Shown piece by piece: positions 1,208 through 13,526 of a stretch of DNA of 13,526 bases. The notes beneath the pieces were generated by a model. The model saw only the letters and a program-made list of their open reading frames with translations, did no database searches and was not told where the DNA came from. How positions within the stretch are numbered: position 1 is the first letter of the stretch; each line of letters starts with the position of its first letter. Made by a program: the position numbers and the translations under genes. Source of the DNA: Pseudomonadota bacterium (lineage in GTDB: Bacteria > Pseudomonadota > Alphaproteobacteria > Rhizobiales > Xanthobacteraceae); the NCBI GenBank assembly GCA_021779635.1, contig JAJYAH010000105.1, positions 1-13,526 on the forward strand, given 5' to 3'.

Positions 1208-1290
1208 CTGGTAACCTCTCATCAGGTCGGCGCCAATCGCCGACGGCGATGTCTTAACCGCGACTGAGAACACCCCTCGCGAATGCAAAT
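1208..1290 (-). promoter_or_regulatory. Leader of the ParA operon: shared motif plus competing hairpins around the SD
   Basis: Reading the minus strand toward the gene, this leader begins with ATTTGCATTCGCG (1290-1278), a motif also found upstream of three other genes here. Three mutually exclusive stems follow. H1 pairs 1245-1250 with 1236-1241 (6 bp, 3-nt loop). H2 pairs 1238-1244 with 1226-1232 (7 bp, 5-nt loop). H3 pairs 1224-1228 (GACCT) with 1213-1217 (AGGTT, part of the Shine-Dalgarno). H1 excludes H2, and H2 excludes H3, so H1 plus H3 would hide the ribosome site and H2 would free it. The GACCT-5nt-GAGGTT core also occurs before both relaxase copies. The pairings are seen in the sequence; regulation is inferred, and the stems are short. 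Confidence 0.45.
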
Positions 1291-4157: not shown

Positions 4158-4868
4158 CTAAACGACCGGCGGAAGCGAAGGCATGATCCACCTCAGGCTC
4201 AGCTTCCACAACTTTAACGGACTTGGCAGCGTCGGTGTATAGATGACAATGACCGCGGCCCTGGTTGTCACAACCTGTTCGCAAAACGGGAACAAACTCT
4301 CCGCGATCCCTTTCGCATCAGCGTCCTTCTCGGTCTCGGTCAGCCAGCCGTTTCGGGTTGTCAAATAACCGTTCTTGGAAGTCGCAACATCGCGGTCTTC
4401 GAGAATGTGGCGAGCGTCATCGACCGTCAGGATATGCCAGCCCTGTTCCGCGATGCCGAGGATGACGGACCGCGCGGTCGGAAACGGCAACTCGCCGTCG
4501 CCCGCCACCAAGGTTGCGCCATCCTGCAAAAACGAGGAAATGTAAGCCTTCCGGTCTTCGACCAGTCGATTGAGATCCTTTTTGCTCACACGGACCAGAG
4601 GAACGTCATCGACCGGAAGCGTTCTGTATTCGGTCAATCCGATCCGCGGAAAGCTGCCGAAATCCGCGTTCACCAAGTAGCAGTGCGGATAGCGCCGGAG
4701 CATCTCAGCGGCAACGGATGTGGAAGAACGGTGGCGCCATCCCGCAATCAGATTGCGGATGTCCTGGATAGGCAGCTTGCCGCCAACGTATTTTGCAAAC
4801 CCGGCCAACTTATCCGGGACCAGTTTCGAGAGAGTCGAAAAAACGACGTTCTTGATCTGACGCAACAT
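4158..4868 (-). CDS. Hypothetical protein, 236 aa
   Basis: I do not recognise this 236-aa protein. It begins with a basic, amphipathic segment (MLRQIKNVVFSTLSKLVPDKL). It continues as a mixed alpha/beta domain with PHCYLVNADFG, DDVPLVRVSKKDLNRL, GATLVAGDGELPFPTARSV and GWHILTVDDARHIL. It ends in a hydrophobic stretch (TRAAVIVIYTPTLP) and a basic-aromatic tail (KLWKLSLRWI) that could touch a membrane, though no clear transmembrane helix is present. ATG 4868 is preferred because GAGGAGG lies 5 nt upstream; the frame is open to 4985 but the extra part would translate the shared TTGCATTCGC leader motif. A strong terminator follows, so it is probably transcribed alone or as the end of the 6704-4992 transcript. 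It carries the same upstream motif as parA and the relaxase, which suggests a role tied to the element's own cycle. Confidence 0.75.
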   Translation of the reverse strand: MLRQIKNVVFSTLSKLVPDKLAGFAKYVGGKLPIQDIRNLIAGWRHRSSTSVAAEMLRRYPHCYLVNADFGSFPRIGLTEYRTLPVDDVPLVRVSKKDLNRLVEDRKAYISSFLQDGATLVAGDGELPFPTARSVILGIAEQGWHILTVDDARHILEDRDVATSKNGYLTTRNGWLTETEKDADAKGIAESLFPFCEQVVTTRAAVIVIYTPTLPSPLKLWKLSLRWIMPSLPPVV

Positions 4869-4935
4869 TGTTGCCTCCTCTGTGGTTGGGAGGCTCGTCA
4901 TAGGCCGGTTTCGAAATACCCCCCGCGAATGCAAT
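4869..4935 (-). promoter_or_regulatory. Leader of the 236-aa gene: shared motif and SD-pairing hairpin
   Basis: The minus strand carries ATTGCATTCGCG (4935-4924) followed by a GGGGGGTATTT run, closely matching the parA leader (GCATTCGCGAGGGGTGTT). Nearer the gene, GCCTCC (4894-4889) can pair with GGAGGC (4878-4873), a 6-bp GC-rich stem with a 10-nt loop; its 3' arm is the strong Shine-Dalgarno itself. The motif and pairing are visible; a regulatory role is inferred. Confidence 0.45.
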
Positions 4936-4991
4936 CGACCCCAAAGTAATTGTTCGGGGCCGACCAGGTTGTCGTTTGCTGTCAATTTACG

Positions 4992-6704
4992 TTAGGCCGG
5001 CACGGCACCGACGAAATGTTTATCTTGATCTCGCTCGACCCGCCACCGACCAGCCCAGTCGACCCGGTACAACGGCGGTAAATTGACGAACGTGGATCGC
5101 AGATGCAGCTCCGGAAACATGCTTTGAAAGGATCCTAACTCGGCATTAAAACGGTAGTAGGTCGTTGGCTCCTCGTCAGGCTCGCCGTCCTGCGCTCCTT
5201 GAACTACGTCCGTCAATGCCGGCCCACCCTCAACAGGCGGCGCTATGGTCAAGTCGTGTTTCGGCTCAGCCATAAATTCCCGCAATGACAGGATCACCGT
5301 CCGAGGCCCCCCGGTCGAGACGATCTCTGCGGCCGCCGCAATCAACTCGGCCCGATCGGCATCGTTGAGAAACGACAGGCCGACCTCGCGACAATTTCGG
5401 ACCGCGAGGTTCCAATCTTTTTCGCCGTTCGCTTGGTGCACAGTGCTCAGAAAAGCACGAGCGTTATGGGGGTCCATGTCACGCACCCGATGACGTTGGA
5501 GATGACCAAGCCAAACGAGACTTTCCAATACGTCGCTAAATTCTTGCGGAACTTCAGGACAAATAGCCGGTATCACGGAGCGCGCGTTGACGCCGCCATA
5601 AAAGGCTATAATTGCCGCATCGAGAGAAGCAATGCAGCGAAAGACGCCAAATCCCTTCTGTTCGTCTCCGACCTGCACGAGAGCGTTTTCAATTTTTAAG
5701 TCAAAGCCGTCGGCTAAGTCCGACACCAAAGCCCGCAATTGCTCTATTCTCCTGGTTGTGCTTGGCGTCAAATTCTGCCGCAGAAGACGTTGAAGTTCCA
5801 CATTGGCATCAAGCATTTTTTCGGCCACGTCTAATCGCGCTCTGTCCATTTCCTGAAAGGCACTTGCGCCGAGGCGAAGAGCCGTTACGACCCGATGGTA
5901 CCATGCGCCCAGCGCGATCCCGTCCAATTCGAATCCAAATATCTGAATGCTATTTAACAGTTCATCTGCTATCCGATTCATGTTAGAATTGAAGATATGC
6001 GGCCGCTCGCCTTGATGAGTTGGCCCGAAAGCGCCCTTGTTTTTGGGCTTGTCTATTACACTTCGGGCGATGGTACGGGCTGCTTCAAACTTATAGCATT
6101 TGATCGCCGTAAAGTTTGCGACCGCGCCATCTTGAACAGTCCGGGAGACACTTTCGGTGCGCGAATGAACAAGATCTCCTTCCAGATCGACGAAGCGGGG
6201 TTCTCCGAGCGCATGTTCGATAAATTCTGCTGCGTGCGTTTCTGCTCGCTCCTGCCAAAGCCCCTCCGGGAAACGATTCGGATACCGACTATATGTCTTC
6301 TCTAAGGATCCCTTGATCGCGGCCTTGCCGATCACCGCTTGAATCGCCATCGCTTGGCGAAGAGTTTCACCAACAGGATCTTTACGGTTACCGCGACGAA
6401 CGTCAGTTACGAACATGGAGGACAATCGCCAAATCGGCCTACCGGCCATGAACTGGATACGATCTCGGTGGTTTAGCAGAACCTTTTGAGCGAGTAAGTC
6501 ATCGAGGGAGACCCGCTGGACTTCTATATCAAGCCCAGTAGACCAATGTATTTCCTCCGTGACGGCAACGACCTGCGAATGCGTAAGATCATAGATTGGA
6601 TTGATGTAGAGCGCCGTGTGATCGGCGATCCACGCGGCATCGTGCAAGACCACGACGATATCCTTGAGGACCAGTGGCTGTTGCGTCCAGGCATGTTGCG
6701 GCAT
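4992..6704 (-). CDS. Large hypothetical protein, 570 aa
   Basis: This is the largest unknown gene in the window. No signal peptide or transmembrane segment is apparent. The N-terminus (LKDIVVVLHDAAWIAD...) leads to EEIHWSTGLDIEVQRVSLDDLLAQK, which faintly recalls the last Asp-bearing strand of nucleotidyltransferases, but I find no GSxxxxDxD motif, so I do not claim that fold. The middle (about residues 290-360, EMDRARLDVAEKMLDANVELQRLLRQNL...) is strongly helical, perhaps coiled coil. An acidic linker (GAQDGEPDEEP, about residues 502-512) leads to an aromatic C-terminal segment ending near WAGRWRVERDQDKHF. ATG 6704 has AAAGGA just upstream. The sequence looks less GC-rich than the relaxase, consistent with cargo of separate origin. 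It is transcribed divergently from the relaxase. The size and multidomain look would fit a defence or effector protein, but nothing proves it. Confidence 0.78.
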   Translation of the reverse strand: MPQHAWTQQPLVLKDIVVVLHDAAWIADHTALYINPIYDLTHSQVVAVTEEIHWSTGLDIEVQRVSLDDLLAQKVLLNHRDRIQFMAGRPIWRLSSMFVTDVRRGNRKDPVGETLRQAMAIQAVIGKAAIKGSLEKTYSRYPNRFPEGLWQERAETHAAEFIEHALGEPRFVDLEGDLVHSRTESVSRTVQDGAVANFTAIKCYKFEAARTIARSVIDKPKNKGAFGPTHQGERPHIFNSNMNRIADELLNSIQIFGFELDGIALGAWYHRVVTALRLGASAFQEMDRARLDVAEKMLDANVELQRLLRQNLTPSTTRRIEQLRALVSDLADGFDLKIENALVQVGDEQKGFGVFRCIASLDAAIIAFYGGVNARSVIPAICPEVPQEFSDVLESLVWLGHLQRHRVRDMDPHNARAFLSTVHQANGEKDWNLAVRNCREVGLSFLNDADRAELIAAAAEIVSTGGPRTVILSLREFMAEPKHDLTIAPPVEGGPALTDVVQGAQDGEPDEEPTTYYRFNAELGSFQSMFPELHLRSTFVNLPPLYRVDWAGRWRVERDQDKHFVGAVPA

Positions 6705-6992
6705 TTCATTCCTTTGAATGATGAATTCGGATGAGAGAAAGTAGGAGCGCCGGGCTGCACGTGACGGTGTGTTAAAATGAGTACTAGCGGCGAGCCGTCG
6801 CGTTCTGCTGAAGTGATTTACTCAAGTTTTAATCAATGTTCTCGGCCCGAGGGCGAGCCCTAATCTCGGGGCTACCTCGGCTGCTAGGCTACCGGCCCAT
6901 ACCGGAACACACTCATCATCACGTCGCCGTATTTGCATTCGCCTGCCCTCTGCTAAAGCCATGCTTGTTGGAGGACCTCGATGGAGGTTCTC
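6705..6992. promoter_or_regulatory. Divergent, structure-rich spacer before the relaxase; candidate oriT/promoter region
   Basis: These 288 bp separate the 570-aa gene (minus) from the relaxase (plus), so promoters for both must lie here. Next to the minus gene, TCATTC and GAATGA (6706-6721) form a perfect 6-bp inverted repeat around its ribosome site. In the middle, 6841-6905 is dense in repeats: GCCCGAGGGCGAGCCC gives alternative small stems, AGCCC (6856-6860) pairs with GGGCT (6869-6873), GGCTACC occurs twice 17 bp apart (6870 and 6887), and ACCGG occurs twice (6891 and 6901). MobF relaxases are often encoded close to their oriT, so this is the best oriT candidate in the window. I cannot identify a nick site. 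TTTGCATTCGC sits at 6932-6942. Confidence 0.35.
6971..6992 (+). promoter_or_regulatory. 9-bp RNA hairpin ending exactly at the relaxase AUG
   Basis: GAGGACCTC (6971-6979) and GAGGTTCTC (6984-6992) form a continuous 9-bp RNA stem with one internal G-U pair and a 4-nt GATG loop. The Shine-Dalgarno GGAGG lies mainly in the 3' arm, and the start codon follows with no gap at 6993. The same stem with a different loop lies before the mini-relaxase ORF at 10428-10449. It could block translation as RNA or be a palindromic operator as DNA. Confidence 0.6.
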
Positions 6993-9659
6993 ATGGTTGC
7001 GACAATCGCGGCTGGTACAACGGCGCAATATTACAGCAAGCAAAGCGAATATTATCTCGGGGGCGGGGAGCCCGCGGGGCGTTGGATCACGTCCACTGGC
7101 AATTTCGATGCGACCCATGGCGCGATCGTCGACAACGCGCTGTTCGAACGTCTTCATGCCGGTCTGGATAAAGACGATCAGCCTCTGCTGTCGAATAATG
7201 GCGATGGGGCAAATCGCGTCGGCGGAATTGACCTGACCCTATCGGCGCCGAAGTCGGTCTCCGTCTTGTTCGCGCTCGCTGATCCCGCGACGCGTCGTGC
7301 GATCGAGCACGCTCAGCACGTTGCGTGCGAGGCGACGATTGGCTTCCTCGACCGAAATGCCGCATTTTGTCGACGCGGCAAGAACGGCCATCTACTGGAG
7401 CGGGCGTCCCTGACCGTGGCGTCGTTCCAACATGCGGAGGCAAGGCCGGTTGCGCACGACGATGGATGCGTCTTTGCCGATCCCAACCTGCATAGTCACG
7501 AAGTGATCCTGAATTGCGCTGTCCGCGACGACGGCTCAATCGGCGCCCTCGATGCCCGTCACCTCTTTGCCAACAAGATGGCCGCCGGCGCGGTGTACCA
7601 TCTCACACTGGCCTCCGAACTCCAAAAGCTCGGTTTTGCCATTGGCGATATTGGTAAAAACGGAATCTTCGAAATCGTCGTTCCTCAAACGGATGGCAGT
7701 CGCAGTGCGGAGCTCGACCAGAGTTTTGTAGCACTGCAACGCCACTTCTCGGCGCGGCGCAAGGAGGTGGAACAAGCGATGGCCGAAGAAGGGCTGTCGA
7801 CCGCGGATGCGCCGGCGCTGGCGGCGGCGATCGCTCTGGGAACCCGGTCGTCCAAACAGCAAGAGCGAACCGGGGATCGGTTCGAATTGTGGGCAGCGCA
7901 AGCCGCCCCGTTCGTGGATTTCGACCGGCTCATCGAGAGCCTGCAAACGCATCGGACGTTAGATCACGCTGAACAAGAAAAGCTGATCGCCGAGCGCGTG
8001 GGGGCGGTGCCGGCGCAGCTCACCGAACGCGAAAGCGTCTTTGAACGGCGGCATCTGGATGCGGCCGTCGCGACTTCGCTAGTGGGCATAGGCGTAGCCG
8101 CCATCCGCATGGAGCAGGAGGTCGCCCGCCTTATCGAAGCAGGCGTCGTTGTCGAGCTTGGACGGGATGCCCTACAGCAAGCGGTCTATTCCACTCCGGA
8201 ACAGATCGCGATCGAGCGGGAGTTGGTCACGGTGGCGGAGCGCCTCGTCCGTGCGCAGCGCGCAGCACCTGATCCGGACGATGTTCTGCAGATTTGCGTT
8301 CAGCACGGGCTGTCCGCGGAACAGACGCGCGCCGCGCAGATGGCGACGACATCAGCCGCCATCGCGGTGATCGAGGGCGCAGCCGGTTCAGGTAAGTCAA
8401 CCACGTTGGCCGCAATCGTGGCAGCCTATTCCGCCCCGTCAGATATCAGTGGCGCTGCCTCCATGCCCCGGCGGGTCATCGGCGCGGCTCAATCCTGGAA
8501 GATTGCCAAAGAATTGCAAAAGCTCGGCATCGAGGCGATGGCCACAGACGCATGGCTTGCCCGTACCAGCGAACCGTTTCTCGATGCCAATACCGTGCTT
8601 GTCGTGGATGAGGCGGGGCTTTTGTCATCGCGCCAAATGCTGGCGATCACCAAGAAGGCCGCGGAAGCACGCTCAAAGATCGTGATCGTAGGCGATCGCG
8701 AACAATTGCAGGCCTTGGGCGCTGGCCCCGGGCTTTCCATCCTCGCCGGAATTGCGGGCACAACCCGCGTGGACACCATCGTGCGGCAGCGCGAGGCCTG
8801 GATGCGCGCCGCCGTCACGGATTTCGCCAAGGGGCGTGCCGAGAAGGGATTACAAGCGTTCGAGGAGCGGGGCTTCCTAACCTCCACTCTCGGCGAAAAG
8901 GCAACCGTCAAAAGTATCGTGAACGCATGGGAAAATACCCAGCGTGCGGCGTCGACCCCTTCGGTCCTGTTGATTGCCAAGACCAACGCTCAGGTCCGGG
9001 CCCTCAATGAAGAGGTCCGCGTCCGATTGAAGCGCGACGGGCAGATCGTCGGAGCCGATATCCAAGTTGCTGCCGTAACACCGTCAGGCCATGGTCAACA
9101 GCTTGCTTTCGCGACCGGCGATCACATCCGGTTTCTGGTGCGGCATGATCGACTCGCGGTCATCAACGGCACCACGGCCACCATCACCCATATCGATGGC
9201 CGCGAAACGTCGGATCCCACGCTCCAAGTCGAAATTGCCGGCCGTCTGGCGAAGTTTCGCGTATCGGAGCTTGCCGATGAATTTGGCCGAGCCCGGCTTG
9301 GTCACGCCTACAGCACCACGATCTATGGATCCCAAGGCCTGACCACCGATCAGGCTTTTGTCTGGGCCGGCCCGTCGATGACACGGCATGACGCCTATGT
9401 CGCATTTTCTCGCGCTCGGGAGAAGCTCGAGATCTTCGTCGATATTCGCGAGATTGACGCGCAAGTCCGCCTGGATTTGCCGCTGTCGGAGCGGCTGGAG
9501 GCCGCCATAACGCCGGAACGGCGACTGAACTGGCTGGCCAGCCGGCTGTCGCGGCTGCAGGTCAAGACCTGCACGCTCGATCCGGTGCTCGATCATGCCG
9601 CACGGGTCCAGGAACGCGCGCGCGAGCGTGAACGGTCGGTGGAGTATGACCTTGGCTAA
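6993..9659 (+). CDS. MobF-family conjugative relaxase/helicase (TrwC/TraI-like)
   Basis: This 888-aa protein nicks oriT and unwinds plasmid or ICE DNA for conjugative transfer. Numbering from ATG 6993, tyrosine pairs Y13Y14 and Y20Y21 match the spaced double pairs of F TraI. LTLSAPKSVSVLFAL (81-95) is the MobF signature. H147, H167 and H169 (ASFQH; NLHSHE) form the metal-binding histidine triad. The RecD-like helicase follows: Walker A GAAGSGKST (462-470), Walker B VLVVDEAG (535-542), motif III VGDREQLQALG (567-577), and STTIYGSQGLTTDQ with AYVAFSRARE (774-810). It is shorter than F TraI and lacks a long C-terminal extension. I prefer ATG 6993 over 6981: it has GGAGG 5 nt upstream, and the shrunken copy at 10450 starts at the equivalent MVATI. 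All catalytic motifs look intact, so it is probably active. A coupling protein is not in the window. Confidence 0.95.
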   Translation: MVATIAAGTTAQYYSKQSEYYLGGGEPAGRWITSTGNFDATHGAIVDNALFERLHAGLDKDDQPLLSNNGDGANRVGGIDLTLSAPKSVSVLFALADPATRRAIEHAQHVACEATIGFLDRNAAFCRRGKNGHLLERASLTVASFQHAEARPVAHDDGCVFADPNLHSHEVILNCAVRDDGSIGALDARHLFANKMAAGAVYHLTLASELQKLGFAIGDIGKNGIFEIVVPQTDGSRSAELDQSFVALQRHFSARRKEVEQAMAEEGLSTADAPALAAAIALGTRSSKQQERTGDRFELWAAQAAPFVDFDRLIESLQTHRTLDHAEQEKLIAERVGAVPAQLTERESVFERRHLDAAVATSLVGIGVAAIRMEQEVARLIEAGVVVELGRDALQQAVYSTPEQIAIERELVTVAERLVRAQRAAPDPDDVLQICVQHGLSAEQTRAAQMATTSAAIAVIEGAAGSGKSTTLAAIVAAYSAPSDISGAASMPRRVIGAAQSWKIAKELQKLGIEAMATDAWLARTSEPFLDANTVLVVDEAGLLSSRQMLAITKKAAEARSKIVIVGDREQLQALGAGPGLSILAGIAGTTRVDTIVRQREAWMRAAVTDFAKGRAEKGLQAFEERGFLTSTLGEKATVKSIVNAWENTQRAASTPSVLLIAKTNAQVRALNEEVRVRLKRDGQIVGADIQVAAVTPSGHGQQLAFATGDHIRFLVRHDRLAVINGTTATITHIDGRETSDPTLQVEIAGRLAKFRVSELADEFGRARLGHAYSTTIYGSQGLTTDQAFVWAGPSMTRHDAYVAFSRAREKLEIFVDIREIDAQVRLDLPLSERLEAAITPERRLNWLASRLSRLQVKTCTLDPVLDHAARVQERARERERSVEYDLG

Positions 9660-9793: not shown

Positions 9794-10156
9794 ATGCCTG
9801 ACAGCAACCTTCCCATTGATCCCAATACCATCCTGCCAATGCCGGTTGAGAATTTTGCCGACATCGCCATCGGTGCCGCGCTCTGGCTGGTGCTGGAATC
9901 GCAGGGGGCTATCGCCAACAAGACCGCGTTCGATCCCGACCCCGAGAACTGCTTCAAGGTGTTCGGGCGGCTCCCGGCGGTGCGGGTGCTGCGCGATCTC
10001 ACCGAGGATCAGCGTCACGACATGTTCATCGAGGGCTTCCGTCGTATCCCCCACGGCGCGCAGCAGGCATTTGAGCTCTTGCTATCCCACCACACGGAGA
10101 TGTTGTGGGAGGGTTTCCGGACCCGGTGGAATGCGATTGCAAACGAGCAGCCATAG
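9794..10156 (+). CDS. Hypothetical protein, 120 aa
   Basis: This is an unrecognised 120-aa protein. ATG 9794 has AAAGGA 8 nt upstream. The chain opens with a Pro/Asp-rich segment (DSNLPIDPNTILPMP), then a hydrophobic helix (FADIAIGAALWLVLESQG), a DPDPENCFKVFGRLPAVRVLRDLTEDQ segment, and a helical C-terminus (QQAFELLLSHHTEMLWEGF). No cysteine pairs, signal peptide or catalytic motif are visible. It follows the relaxase by 134 bp on the same strand and is likely part of its transcript. Its third-position GC bias is like that of the relaxase, which supports real coding; the long minus-strand frame across it (10002-9562) is a shadow. It could be a small accessory factor of transfer, but only position suggests that. 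Confidence 0.68.
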   Translation: MPDSNLPIDPNTILPMPVENFADIAIGAALWLVLESQGAIANKTAFDPDPENCFKVFGRLPAVRVLRDLTEDQRHDMFIEGFRRIPHGAQQAFELLLSHHTEMLWEGFRTRWNAIANEQP

Positions 10157-10386: not shown

Positions 10387-10449
10387 TATTTCCATTCGCG
10401 TCCCCCCCATCCAAAGCATGTTCTTTAGAGGACCTCATCAGAGGTTCTC
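10387..10449 (+). promoter_or_regulatory. Duplicate of the relaxase leader: shared motif and the same 9-bp hairpin
   Basis: TATTTCCATTCGCG (10387-10400) matches the relaxase upstream motif, and AAAGC-ATG-TT spacing follows as in that copy. GAGGACCTC (10428-10436) and GAGGTTCTC (10441-10449) are identical to the relaxase stem arms, with an ATCA loop, and ATG follows directly at 10450. The loop has changed while both arms are unchanged, which suggests selection on the pairing or on a palindromic operator. Confidence 0.6.
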
Positions 10450-10740
10450 ATGGTGGCGACGATCGTAGCGAGCGCAATACCGCAGCCCAGACAGTCCGAA
10501 TATCTTCTCGGCGGACGCGAAGCCGTGGTCCGTGGCTCGATTGTTGATGTCGCTCTGGTCGGTCGCCGTGATGGCTTCGACGTGGTCGGTCGGTTCCTAC
10601 CGATTAGTCCGGGCGGCATGTCTTGGCTCATTACCGGACTGTCTCGCGTTCAGATTAGGACATGTACGCGCGATCCGGCTGTGGAGTACGCGAGGCGCGA
10701 GGCTGAACGCAATCAGTCACGGAGCTCCGACCGTGGCTAA
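10450..10740 (+). pseudogene. Miniature relaxase derivative: N-terminal and C-terminal ends fused, core deleted
   Basis: This intact 96-codon frame is built from the two ends of the relaxase. Its start MVATIVAS...QSEYLLGG matches relaxase MVATIAAG...QSEYYLGG, then GSIVDVALVGRRDGFD matches GAIVDNALFERLHAGLD. Its end SWLITGLSRVQIRTCTRDP...AEYAR-like region matches relaxase NWLASRLSRLQVKTCTLDP. The paired tyrosine segment (Y13Y14), the histidine triad and the whole helicase are gone, so it cannot act as a relaxase. The leader hairpin, the start and the stop overlap with the next gene (GTGGCTAA) are kept, and the frame has no stop. It could be a decayed duplicate, or a small ORF kept because its translation controls the downstream genes. 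Divergence from the full gene shows the duplication is not recent. Confidence 0.7.
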
Positions 10741-11026
10741 GGTCAAAGGCACCCTTCGGCCGCGAAAGGTTCAGGGTGATCCCCTCAACACTTCAGGCCA
10801 TTCCGAACATGGCCCAAAGGTGGGCGCCGCGACGGATGAGCCGATCGTGCTTGACGATTTTCCCGAGGTGATCCCGGTCGCCAGGCCGGAGTTGGAGGTC
10901 ATCGAAACGTACCTCGGCGGTCTGATCGACCAGCTGCTTATGGACGCCGCATCCGACGGGGCCAAGGCGCCCGTTTCCACCAATTCCGGCAGCCCATCCG
11001 GGCCTCCCGCCCTAGATCGTGACTAG
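10733..11026 (+). CDS. Hypothetical small protein, 97 aa, coupled to the mini-relaxase
   Basis: The gene starts at GTG 10733 (GGAG 8 nt upstream) inside the end of the mini-relaxase ORF, which stops at 10740. The frame extends upstream to 10532, but that part overlaps the mini-relaxase. The N-terminus is short and basic (AKVKGTLRPRKVQG). A Ser/Gly/Ala linker follows, then an acidic-hydrophobic core (DEPIVLDDFPEVIPVARPELEVIETYLGGLIDQLLMDAAS) and a disordered Ser/Pro tail. The helix near EVIETYLGGLIDQLLM could be a dimerisation element. Its stop TAG lies within the GTG start region of the next gene, so the three frames from 10450 form a chain of overlaps. I know no family. The 33-aa ORF after the full relaxase shares its N-terminal start. 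Confidence 0.65.
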   Translation: MAKVKGTLRPRKVQGDPLNTSGHSEHGPKVGAATDEPIVLDDFPEVIPVARPELEVIETYLGGLIDQLLMDAASDGAKAPVSTNSGSPSGPPALDRD

Positions 11027-11030
11027 TCAC
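11019..11030. repeat. Perfect 12-bp palindrome over a stop/start overlap
   Basis: GTGACTAGTCAC is a perfect 12-bp palindrome. It contains both the GTG start of the 223-aa gene and the TAG stop of the 97-aa gene. It could be an operator or just a chance product of the overlap; no second copy is seen in the window. Confidence 0.5.
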
Positions 11031-11690
11031 GCCATGTGCCCGCCCGACCAAACCAACGAAAAACCTGACGACGCCGCTGCCGCGGCTGACGGCGACGAAA
11101 CCGCCCAAGAGCAGAATCACGTCGTCGTCCCGCTGACAGACGACGAGTTGCGAGCGGGTGGCATGAAGCGCACTGTGGCGTACATCCGAACGGAACGGTC
11201 GAAAGAAGCACTTCGGAAAGAAAAACATCGAAAGAAGCAGCAAGAAAGCGGTAAGCGCCAAATCAACATCAACGTTCCTGATGACGACCGTTCGCGCGCC
11301 ACCGTGCGGGGCGCGGCAATCGCGATCGAAGACGAGGTGGCGCACCGGGCTTTTGAACTGCTGCTCGCTGACGAGGAATTGCGCCCCCTCATTGTCGGCG
11401 TCGCCGCTCAATCCGAACTTCGCGAAATAGTCGACCTTATCCAACGACTGCCAGCAACAGCACATTCACTGAACGCCGTACGGCTCGCCATTACCGATCC
11501 GGCGATTGCCGAACTGATCGATAGGGCGACGGCGACCCGCCGCGTGCGGGTGGCCATGGAGATGGCCGCCGCCAACCCGGAATTCGTATTCTTTGGTCAC
11601 AACGCTGCGACACAGCGGAGCTTCTGCGCCCGTCTGGCCCGGCTCCTGCTCAGGATTCACAAAGTCCGCCGCATCGATAGCGACCCATAG
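11019..11690 (+). CDS. Basic accessory protein, 223 aa (possible ribbon-helix-helix DNA-binding type)
   Basis: The frame opens at GTG 11019, overlapping the stop of the 97-aa gene by 8 bases; ATG 11034 is an alternative start (218 aa). The first 45 residues are Ala/Asp/Glu-rich and probably disordered. A strongly basic patch follows (RSKEALRKEKHRKKQQESGKRQ), then ININVPDDDRSRATVRGAA. The order 'basic helix, strand of alternating residues, Asp-rich turn, helix' recalls small DNA-binding proteins of alphaproteobacterial plasmids with a (Q/R)-x-N-V-x-V-P strand; I infer, but cannot prove, a ribbon-helix-helix-like fold. The remainder is helical (AIEDEVAHRAFELLLADEEL...). Lying between the mini-relaxase unit and the recombinase, it could be a transfer or excision regulator. 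Confidence 0.72.
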   Translation: MTSHAMCPPDQTNEKPDDAAAAADGDETAQEQNHVVVPLTDDELRAGGMKRTVAYIRTERSKEALRKEKHRKKQQESGKRQININVPDDDRSRATVRGAAIAIEDEVAHRAFELLLADEELRPLIVGVAAQSELREIVDLIQRLPATAHSLNAVRLAITDPAIAELIDRATATRRVRVAMEMAAANPEFVFFGHNAATQRSFCARLARLLLRIHKVRRIDSDP

Positions 11691-11823: not shown

Positions 11824-13518
11824 ATGAGTAACCGTAAGCGCCAGGCAAAACCTATCGTGGGGACCAACAGGACCCGGGTGGCCCTGTATCTGCGTGTCTC
11901 AACGGATCGACAGCGTCAGCACGATCTTTCGATTCCGGATCAGAGGACGCAAATCTTGTCTTGGTGCGAAACCCAGGGCCATGAAGCGGTGGCGGAGTTT
12001 GTCGAAGGCGGAGCGACAGGGACCGACGACAAGCGCCCGATTTTTCAGCAAATGATCGATCGGGCCTGTGACGGCGACAATGCGTTCGATGTCATCGCAG
12101 TGCACAGCTATAGCCGTTTCTTTCGCGATGCCTTTGGCCAGGAGTTCTATCTTCGGAAACTGGCAAAGCAGGGCGTCAAGCTGGTCTCCATTACCCAGCC
12201 GCTTGGCGACGACGATGATCCCGCACAGGCGATGATGCGAAAGGTCATTGCGCTGTTCGATGAATATCAGTCGAAAGAGAACGCGAAGCACGTGCTGCGC
12301 AATATGAAGCTCAACGCCCAGCAGGGTTTCTGGAACGGCTCGCCCGTCCCGCTTGGCTATGTGTTGGTCGAGGTGGAGAAGCGCGGCACCAAGATCAAGA
12401 AGACCCTGGCCATCGATCCCGTCGATGCCGAAACCGTCCAGCTCATTTACAGGCTGTATCTAAATGGAGACGGCACGTCCGGCGCGCTCGGCGTCAAAGA
12501 GGTGGTCAAATGGCTGAACAGCCGTGGCTACCGGACCCGCAAGGGCAAAACCTTTGGTGTCGGCACCATCTACAAGATACTCACCAGCACCACCTATATG
12601 GGCGAGTGGAAGTTCAACCGGATGTCGTCCCGCACCGGGAAATGGAAGCCCGATGCAGAGGTCGTAACCTCGCCGGTTCCGGCGATCATCGAACCTCATC
12701 TGTTTGAGCAGGTCCAGCGCCAGCTTCATGCCCGTAGTCCGAAGGTCGCCGCGCCACGCGTGACGACGGGGCCGATCTTGCTCACCGGCCTCGCCGTGTG
12801 CGCAAGTTGCAATGGCGGAATGACGCTGCGGACGGGCACCTCGAAGACCGGCGCCGTCCATCGTTACTACACTTGCTCGACCTGCGCACGAAAGGGGAAG
12901 ACGGTCTGCAAAGGCCGGTCAATCCCGATGGCGAAGCTCGACACGCTCGTCACCAGCCATATGAACGAACGGCTGTTCCAGCCGGAGCGGCTGGCCATGA
13001 TCTTGTCCTCGCTCTCGTCGCGGCGTTCGGAAAAGGCAGACTCGGTCAATGCCCGCGTAACCGCTTTACAGCGCGAGGTCACCGACGCCGACGAAAAGCT
13101 CAAGCGCCTCTATCGGCTGATCGAGGACGGCATGACGGAAATGGACGATGTGCTGAAGGATCGGCTAAACTCACTGAAGGCCGACCGGGACCGCGCCAAG
13201 GCCGCACTCGAACGAGCCAAATCCCACTCATCGCAAGCCATCCAGATCGACCCGGCGCTGCTTGAGCAGTTCGGTCGCAGCATGCGCGAGAACTTTACCT
13301 CCGGATCGATTCCGTTCCGCAAGGCCTACCTGCAGTCCCTGATCGACGTGATAGAGGTCGACGACACCCAAATCCGCATCAAAGGCAGCAAAGACGTACT
13401 CGAAAGAGCGGTTCTGGCGAGCCGGAATGGGGCCATTCCGGGTTCGCAGATGAGTACTGGGTGGCGCTCCCTAGGGGAATCGAACCCCTGTTTTCGCCGT
13501 GAGAGGGCGACGTCCTAA
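11824..13518 (+). CDS. Large serine recombinase (site-specific integrase)
   Basis: This 564-aa serine recombinase most likely integrates and excises the element. The catalytic domain opens with VALYLRVSTDRQ, giving the nucleophile S26 with R23 nearby, and has HSYSRFFRD (95-102) with the further catalytic arginines, then the long helix FDEYQSKENAKH. The recombinase domain spans about 168-300 (GFWNGSPVPLGY; WLNSRGYRTRKGKTF). A zinc ribbon has C326-x2-C329 and C351-x2-C354, with C362 close by. A coiled coil covers about 405-465, typical of phage and ICE integrases. The conserved end seems to be near IRIKGSKDVLERAVL. The last 18 residues (547-564) are read antisense from the tRNA-Glu gene and the stop lies in its D-arm region, so this tail belongs to the target site. 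The frame is otherwise intact. Confidence 0.95.
   Translation: MSNRKRQAKPIVGTNRTRVALYLRVSTDRQRQHDLSIPDQRTQILSWCETQGHEAVAEFVEGGATGTDDKRPIFQQMIDRACDGDNAFDVIAVHSYSRFFRDAFGQEFYLRKLAKQGVKLVSITQPLGDDDDPAQAMMRKVIALFDEYQSKENAKHVLRNMKLNAQQGFWNGSPVPLGYVLVEVEKRGTKIKKTLAIDPVDAETVQLIYRLYLNGDGTSGALGVKEVVKWLNSRGYRTRKGKTFGVGTIYKILTSTTYMGEWKFNRMSSRTGKWKPDAEVVTSPVPAIIEPHLFEQVQRQLHARSPKVAAPRVTTGPILLTGLAVCASCNGGMTLRTGTSKTGAVHRYYTCSTCARKGKTVCKGRSIPMAKLDTLVTSHMNERLFQPERLAMILSSLSSRRSEKADSVNARVTALQREVTDADEKLKRLYRLIEDGMTEMDDVLKDRLNSLKADRDRAKAALERAKSHSSQAIQIDPALLEQFGRSMRENFTSGSIPFRKAYLQSLIDVIEVDDTQIRIKGSKDVLERAVLASRNGAIPGSQMSTGWRSLGESNPCFRRERATS
13462..13500. other. Putative attachment site at the 3' end of tRNA-Glu
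   Basis: The integrase gene runs directly into the 3' half of an intact-looking tRNA gene, the usual layout at one end of an ICE or genomic island integrated in a tRNA. The core is expected to be a stretch of the T-arm and acceptor strand. No second copy of this tRNA end occurs in the window, so the other attachment site must lie beyond the left edge. Large serine recombinases use tRNA targets less often than tyrosine recombinases do. The exact core cannot be set from one end. Confidence 0.55.
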
Positions 13519-13526
13519 CCGCTAGA
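13462..13526 (-). tRNA. tRNA-Glu(CTC), 5' end cut by the window edge
   Basis: Read on the minus strand, the sequence contains the D-arm TAGCGGTTAGGAC, an anticodon stem-loop TCGCC / CTCTCAC / GGCGA with anticodon CTC (Glu), and the T-arm AGGGG / TTCGATT / CCCCT. The 3' acceptor strand AGGGAGC, discriminator G and an encoded CCA (13464-13462) follow. Only about the first 10 bases, including the 5' acceptor strand, lie outside the window. The gene is transcribed toward the recombinase and overlaps its 3' end by 57 bases. Confidence 0.93.

Follow-up and report, generated by a model that had tools for sequence, protein, structure and literature searches.

Introduction

In plasmid R1, translation of a short upstream ORF, which encodes the repA leader peptide, controls the next gene, and the control is exerted by an antisense RNA. 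In relaxases of the MobF/TrwC type, which are relevant to the locus described here, the N-terminal tyrosine pairs are catalytic. The S004-repA leader of Salmonella genomic island 1 (SGI1) is described as a leader ORF whose translation is needed in cis, with a stem-loop that masks the downstream start (PMC7826253). For the IMEMl R88B-like elements of Mesorhizobium, it has been proposed that excision is linked to relaxase expression via gene order, with a putative RDF gene downstream of the relaxase gene traA (PMC8627217).

The window, that is, the whole stretch of 13,526 nucleotides that was analysed, contains much of an integrating mobile element. In addition to a full-length relaxase gene, it carries a mini unit, in which a short ORF made of relaxase ends precedes the gene p97. 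An earlier note had suggested that this mini ORF may be a domesticated leader ORF. The comparison with related elements favours a leader reading, considering that the unit recurs, that its motif, hairpin and overlap are kept and that the middle of the ORF in a sister lineage is near neutral; the other half of the suggestion, a need for translation of the ORF, is a possibility read from the anatomy of the unit. We estimate a probability of about 0.5 that the mini unit arose from a relaxase gene by internal deletion, probably once cassettes from two related elements had been joined, and has been retained as a regulatory leader.

Organization of the mobile element

The features of the window are listed in Table 1. 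The full-length relaxase has a TrwC domain plus a helicase, as is characteristic of the MobF/TrwC type, and reaches 180.7 bits with the NCBIfam MobF model (cut-off 100). The products of p97, p120 and p223 gave nothing above the curated cut-offs in Pfam and NCBIfam and no PHROG match, and the AlphaFold model of p223 was poor (pLDDT 41). The window is composite: each cassette has lost a different redundant gene, the p97-type copy behind the mini ORF being intact and the copy behind the full relaxase being an internal-deletion remnant. As for the tRNA gene, tRNAs near or inside the recombinase end are also seen elsewhere, namely tRNA-Leu (L001, L002, L116), tRNA-Glu (L119, L122) and tRNA-Arg (L121).

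Table 1. Features of the window, with strand and supporting evidence (SD, Shine-Dalgarno)
Feature	Position	Strand	Evidence or remark
ParA-like gene		-	CbiA and VirC1 matches, both under Pfam cut-offs
Genes of 126, 403, 275 and 570 aa		-	ORF list
Motif, ParA-like gene	1279..1290	-	motif scan; no mismatch
Motif, 275-aa gene	4925..4936	-	motif scan; 2 mismatches
Motif, full relaxase: ATTTGCATTCGC	6931..6942	+	motif scan; exact
Leader hairpin, full relaxase	6971..6992	+	z -3.98
Full-length MobF relaxase/helicase, 888 aa	6993..9659	+	TrwC 3.5e-54, AAA_30 2.7e-40 (Pfam)
Remnant of p97-type gene behind full relaxase, 35 aa	9646..9753	+	5′ and 3′ pieces match p97 genes of other elements
p120	9794..10156	+	ORF list, locus mapping
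Motif, mini unit: ATTTCCATTCGC	10388..10399	+	1 mismatch to ATTTGCATTCGC; common to relaxase, ParA-like and 275-aa gene starts
Leader hairpin, mini: GAGGACCTC-ATCA-GAGGTTCTC	10428..10449	+	SD in 3′ arm; -14.7 kcal/mol, z -3.84, p 0.007
Mini-relaxase ORF, 96 aa	10450..10740	+	alignment to relaxase ends, protein clusters
Possible second hairpin over p97 start codon	10715..10738	+	8/8 pairs; p 0.060 for window copy; lead only
Overlap of p97 start (GTG) and mini stop (TAA), 8 nt	10733..10740	+	same arrangement in all five genomic minis
p97 (AK..LRPR gene, 97 aa)	10733..11026	+	no family match
p223	11019..11690	+	start overlaps p97 end (11019-11026); homologues 60-71% identical
Large serine recombinase	11824..13518	+	Resolvase, Recombinase, zinc ribbon (Pfam); PHROG integrase
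tRNA gene, cut by window end	13465-13526	-	overlapped by recombinase ORF

Origin of the mini ORF from a relaxase gene

The mini ORF had been described as a fusion of relaxase N-terminal and C-terminal sequence, and both of its ends indeed align with the full relaxase gene above chance. The 5′ part, compared with the leader and start of the full gene, gives a local score of 70, the best of 500 mononucleotide shuffles being 32, and 64 of 82 columns match from -64 to +16. For the 3′ part, the score is 33 and the best of 500 shuffles 27, a difference that is thin alone. A longer homologue, P0006, matches the window relaxase at either end, with single-pair E-values of 2e-17 for an N-terminal stretch, which reaches about residue 67, and 1e-11 for residues 845-888. 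From these two stretches, about 775 codons are missing. In keeping with the loss of the catalytic middle, the mini protein has no TrwC or AAA match in Pfam and no relaxase match in NCBIfam; the residues between about 67 and 845 are absent, and the TrwC domain with the HUH motif that marks the MobF/TrwC type is not found.

The coordinates of the ORF and its open frame are as the note gave them. A correction applies to its length, given that the window copy (96 aa) is a shortened member of a family of 108-109 aa and has undergone a 12-aa in-frame deletion. This lineage comprises six protein clusters, the window mini and P0002-P0006 (108-109 aa), and the mini protein was found on two contigs in the protein search. 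The 70-80% identity of P0002-P0006 to the window mini over the full query, together with the last nine residues, which vary at one position only across the six clusters, would be expected if the mini encoded a working small protein, such as a regulator or a decoy built of relaxase ends. This is, however, very improbable, considering that the first Tyr-Tyr pair is missing and the second is changed to YL or NC in all six clusters, that AlphaFold gives no fold (pLDDT 49, pTM 0.18; 8-row alignment including relaxase ends) and that almost no amino-acid constraint is seen in the sister minis of other elements. The mini peptide itself is probably unimportant.

Upstream motif

The 12-bp motif ATTTGCATTCGC precedes four gene starts of the element in the window, including that of the mini ORF, and two more sites with two mismatches (5940 and 10144) are located inside or next to coding sequence. 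In the shuffled window, 0.75 matches were obtained on average and 3 at most. The IUPAC form of the motif has three matches in the window at one mismatch, and none of 200 dinucleotide shuffles reached three. A search for sigma-70-like promoters found 0, with 1.5 expected.

In L001, L002 and L115, the exact 15-mer CAATTGNTCTGCAAC occurs three times each, before the divergent 275-aa-type gene, the relaxase and the mini ORF. L003 has three CAATTGNTCTGCAAC sites with 2-3 mismatches and one elsewhere with 1 mismatch; the other listed matches have 2-3 mismatches, and in shuffled loci (8 mononucleotide shuffles each) 0.1-1.9 such matches were obtained. L126 has the window motif type before its relaxase and 275-aa-type gene, with 2 mismatches each, and an inverted repeat, TTTGCATTGCAAA, found before the relaxase of L004 and L116, represents a third motif type. 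This repeat or its one-base variants occur at 9907 and 9937 in L004 and at 4481 and 8106 in L116, upstream of the relaxase and at one further site.

The motif differs between element types and agrees within an element, and each mini carries the type of its own element. Judged from these sequences, agreement within an element is what control by a common regulator would be expected to produce, and it is the strongest single argument that the mini unit may be in use. If the mini leader descended from the relaxase leader of the same element, the initial agreement would be explained, but not its exact keeping while the middle of the ORF drifts. The motif match itself says nothing about the regulator.

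Leader hairpin

The arms of the leader stem had been called unchanged, and GAGGACCTC and GAGGTTCTC are in fact identical in the full and the mini leader, the loops being different (GATG and ATCA, respectively). Among 30 folded leaders of relaxase and mini genes, most have a hairpin just before the start codon with the Shine-Dalgarno (SD) sequence in the 3′ arm. Six near-identical leaders were removed (L115 full and mini, L122, L018, L020 and L022 are among the dropped names), and 23 of the remaining 24 had folds more stable than those of shuffles (p<=0.04), all except L021 (p 0.10); the mean z was -3.7. Judged by eye, the two arms change in step, for example GAGGACCTC/GAGGTTCTC in the window and L126, GCCTCC/GGAGGC in L004, L116 and L119, AAGGCCTC/GAGGTTTT in L121 and GGACCTC/GAGGTCC in L024. 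The stem of the full L003 relaxase contains a mismatch.

Leaders of 19 other genes of the same elements, two of which were not placed on the start codon, gave a mean of -3.1 kcal/mol, compared with -15.0 for the relaxase and mini leaders, and the difference in SD-zone pairing between the leader sets was smaller (0.54 versus 0.42). A stable stem over the SD sequence with compensatory change is the signature of an SD-sequestering hairpin, although a DNA palindrome would leave the same trace. Relaxase-like structures are also seen at other places. When the 275-aa gene is read from an internal ATG at 4868, a GCCTCC...GGAGGC hairpin covers its SD sequence at about 4871-4894 (minus strand). In L004, a second leader-like sequence (..YFDGGDRNSRGRG..) is present at about 8955-9010, 1 kb before the relaxase leader.

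Junction with p97

The stop of the mini ORF was said to overlap the start of the AK..LRPR gene as in the full-length unit. The overlap is present in both places, with GTGGCTAA in the mini unit and TTGGCTAA at 9652-9659 in the full relaxase, and the gene behind the full relaxase in the window is itself a deletion remnant of 35 aa. All five genomic minis have the form of a translationally coupled leader, namely a short ORF with a start signal and a stop overlapping the next start. Because p97 begins M-A-K, the TAA stop is largely dictated by p97; the kept feature at the junction is the frame that runs into this TAA. A candidate SD sequence of p97, GGAG, is located about 9 nt before its start.

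The possible hairpin over the p97 start also reaches 8/8 pairs in L119, in L120 and at the junction that follows the full relaxase of L115; three sister minis form it with the register shifted by one. It was below shuffles (p<0.05) in two of 12 junctions, the window p97 remnant being excluded, and one of these two, L003, folds otherwise. A claim of significance for this hairpin was dropped on account of this count.

Distribution across related elements

Seventeen stretches were mapped, 16 of which are distinct (L124 is L003 again). The search for mini ORFs before p97 homologues, which had been put forward as a check on the leader proposal, found them in five of the 16 distinct elements (the window, L001, L002, L003 and L115), the L003 mini being located by position and not by tblastn. 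The basic gene order is relaxase-p97-(p223 or p120)-recombinase, which is direct in L004, L116, L119 and L120 and interrupted by a gap between relaxase and p97 in L121 and L122. L126 has p97 with no p120 or p223 match, L125 has no p97 match, and L118 has p97 with no recognised relaxase or mini; the relaxase is in two pieces in L123 and cut at the 5′ side in L117. The order is relaxase-p97-p223-mini-p97-p120-recombinase in L115 and relaxase-p97 remnant-p120-mini-p97-p223-recombinase in the window. These are the same two cassettes in opposite order, and the mini heads the second cassette in both.

Two genes, presumably for metallophosphoesterases (a label taken from a motif), are inserted between relaxase and mini at 12677-14340 in L001. 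L004 has a second serine recombinase with a p97-like gene upstream of the element (4684-6327), and its own recombinase (13751-14936) is without a central stretch, query residues 177-335 being unmatched.

A protein search with the sister minis gave four clusters, of which P0007 and P0008 are the own minis of L115 and L001, and P0009 and P0010 are additional. Beyond the five genomic minis, there are thus seven mini protein clusters (P0002-P0006, P0009 and P0010). P0010, a metagenomic protein of 67 aa known as a protein only, starts like the L001 form and ends like the L004 relaxase; it is likely a recombinant. An independent origin of the two mini forms was dropped as a settled point, and the two may be trimmings of one ancestral mini.

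Wider scans gave the following counts. In the genus of L002, at least 43 of 265 genomes contained the p97 gene (E<=1e-4); it was also found in at least 25 of 391 genomes of the family of L003 (E<=1e-8), in 1 of 8 and 4 of 18 genomes of two genera (E<=1e-10), and, in an order-wide search, in at least 1 of 397 genomes, the centre genome itself. The relaxase (E<=1e-150) was found in at least 12 of the 265 genomes. The candidates scored per genome numbered 3 for the relaxase (265 genomes), 18 for p97 in the 265 genomes and 12 for p97 in the 391 and 397 genomes. A relaxase scan of genome contigs yielded five loci, four of them with a nearly full homologue. No relative of p223 was found in 130 pattern stretches of genome contigs; with the mini protein, none of 43 stretches of viral contigs was confirmed and plasmids gave no match. 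A leader pattern search, in which at least 143 of 265 genomes matched among the matches listed, was rejected as mostly noise.

Conservation of the unit and drift of its middle

Among the four sister minis (L115, L002, L001 and L003), the mean pairwise identity is 33% at -95..-76, 80% at -75..-46, 56% at -45..-25, 83% in the hairpin and 84% from -4 through codon 11. It is 58-65% in the middle of the ORF and 76% over its final 21 nt; in the 39 nt of p97 that follow it is 67%, so that the beginning of p97 is no better conserved than the mini middle. The dN/dS values are 0.38-1.38 for the sister minis (six pairs, L003 included). For p97 they are 0.22-0.37, also from six pairs, and for the relaxase 0.04-0.16, from ten pairs of which most have a dS above 1. 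Pooled over the three better-aligned sister minis, L003 being left out as it aligns poorly, pN/pS is 0.86, or 0.94 without the first 11 codons, suggesting that the middle of the sister mini evolves near neutrality. This comparison covers the sister lineage; the P0002-P0006 lineage was compared as proteins.

A pN/pS near 1 would be expected of a dead relaxase copy that is decaying after cassette combination and in which leader and ends persist as the events are recent. The mini length, which varies from 65 to 96 codons, and the decay of the first p97 copy of the window and of the L117 relaxase fit such a remnant as well. Nevertheless, simple decay is an unlikely explanation, because the middle stands at 58-65% identity while motif, hairpin and start stand at 80-84%, and because the 15-mer is exact in three of the four sister minis.

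Stops, frameshifts or a lost leader in related elements, the outcome named as the one that would speak against a domesticated leader, are present in none of the five genomic minis, all of which are open. A neutral frame would stay open with a probability of 0.08-0.21 per branch at 25-35% divergence. However, the open frame is weak evidence, because the frame of p97 is equally stop-free through four of the five minis and the DNA is GC-rich; openness was therefore dropped as a main argument. The open p97 frame is also compatible with a role in transcription only, in which the unit is kept for its leader and for a motif that acts as operator or promoter, while the ORF is simply carried along and p97 uses its own SD sequence. 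In favour of this alternative, no other feature stands out from its surroundings by its conservation as much as the motif, most of the junctions shown have an SD-like GGAG ahead of the p97 start, and no mini was noticed by eye in 16 loci with distant p97 relatives, so that p97 types can do without a mini. On the other hand, a pure promoter would not need the SD hairpin, codons 1-11 or the stop/start overlap, all of which persist as well, and a role in transcription only is to be regarded as a serious but rather improbable alternative. The recurrence of motif, SD hairpin, start and overlap in relatives, while the middle drifts, suggests that the mini unit, as far as can be read from the sequences, is kept for regulation and not for its peptide.

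Proposed regulatory mechanism

If the mini unit acts as a regulatory leader, the motif would bring the second cassette under the same transcriptional regulator as the full relaxase and the divergent genes. Transcripts started in the motif region, or read through from the upstream cassette, would run into the mini leader, where the hairpin would throttle ribosome entry as on the relaxase mRNA. Ribosomes translating the mini ORF would then terminate on the p97 start and reinitiate there, and a second reinitiation may take place at the overlap of p97 and p223 (11019-11026). Since the serine recombinase is downstream and the relaxase bears the same motif, this arrangement suggests a need for p97 and p223 alongside the relaxase, for example in excision.

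A more general form of this model is tentative and less likely than not. In the course of cassette combination, the redundant relaxase would repeatedly be reduced by in-frame deletion until the operator, the SD hairpin, the first codons and the overlap at the end are left. The product would be a self-made translational relay, through which excision or transfer genes stay in the regulon of the relaxase. Convergence would then account for the two mini forms, which differ in their junctions, and P0010 would be a relay re-used by recombination.

Comparison with known systems

If the regulatory reading is correct, the mini unit, examined here in one family of integrating elements of soil bacteria, offers a concrete origin of leader ORFs, namely deletion-emptied enzyme genes whose control ends are still needed. 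It would show how genes newly brought together by cassette-swapping mobile elements are held in one regulon, and it points to short genes of the "hypothetical protein" class that should be read as regulatory. The motif, hairpin and overlap make the leader idea testable with simple reporters. No description of a gutted relaxase used as a leader was recognised in the literature searched, which was covered mainly at the level of titles and abstract openings.

The repA leader of plasmid R1 differs from the mini unit in origin. As in the mRNAs of the ISPpu9 and IS10 transposases, in which 5′ structure or control directed at the RBS is reported to limit translation of a mobile-element enzyme, structure is found at the 5′ end, but here it is carried by relaxase genes and kept on a gutted copy (PMC8450116, PMC5006887). 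In the IMEMl R88B-like elements, the traA relaxase is described as intact, whereas a gutted copy precedes p97 and p223 in the window (PMC8627217). In addition, neither p97 nor p223 is known to be an RDF gene. The S004-repA leader is alike in being a short ORF of an integrative mobilizable element that extends into the start of the following gene. It differs in being a dedicated leader protein before a replication gene, as opposed to the 5′ and 3′ ends of a gutted relaxase before p97, and in having a masked downstream start, for which the present locus has a candidate masking stem only (below shuffles in 2/12 junctions) (PMC7826253). By analogy, the mechanism proposed for the mini unit would be close to that described for the S004-repA leader of SGI1, and its origin and setting would be new.
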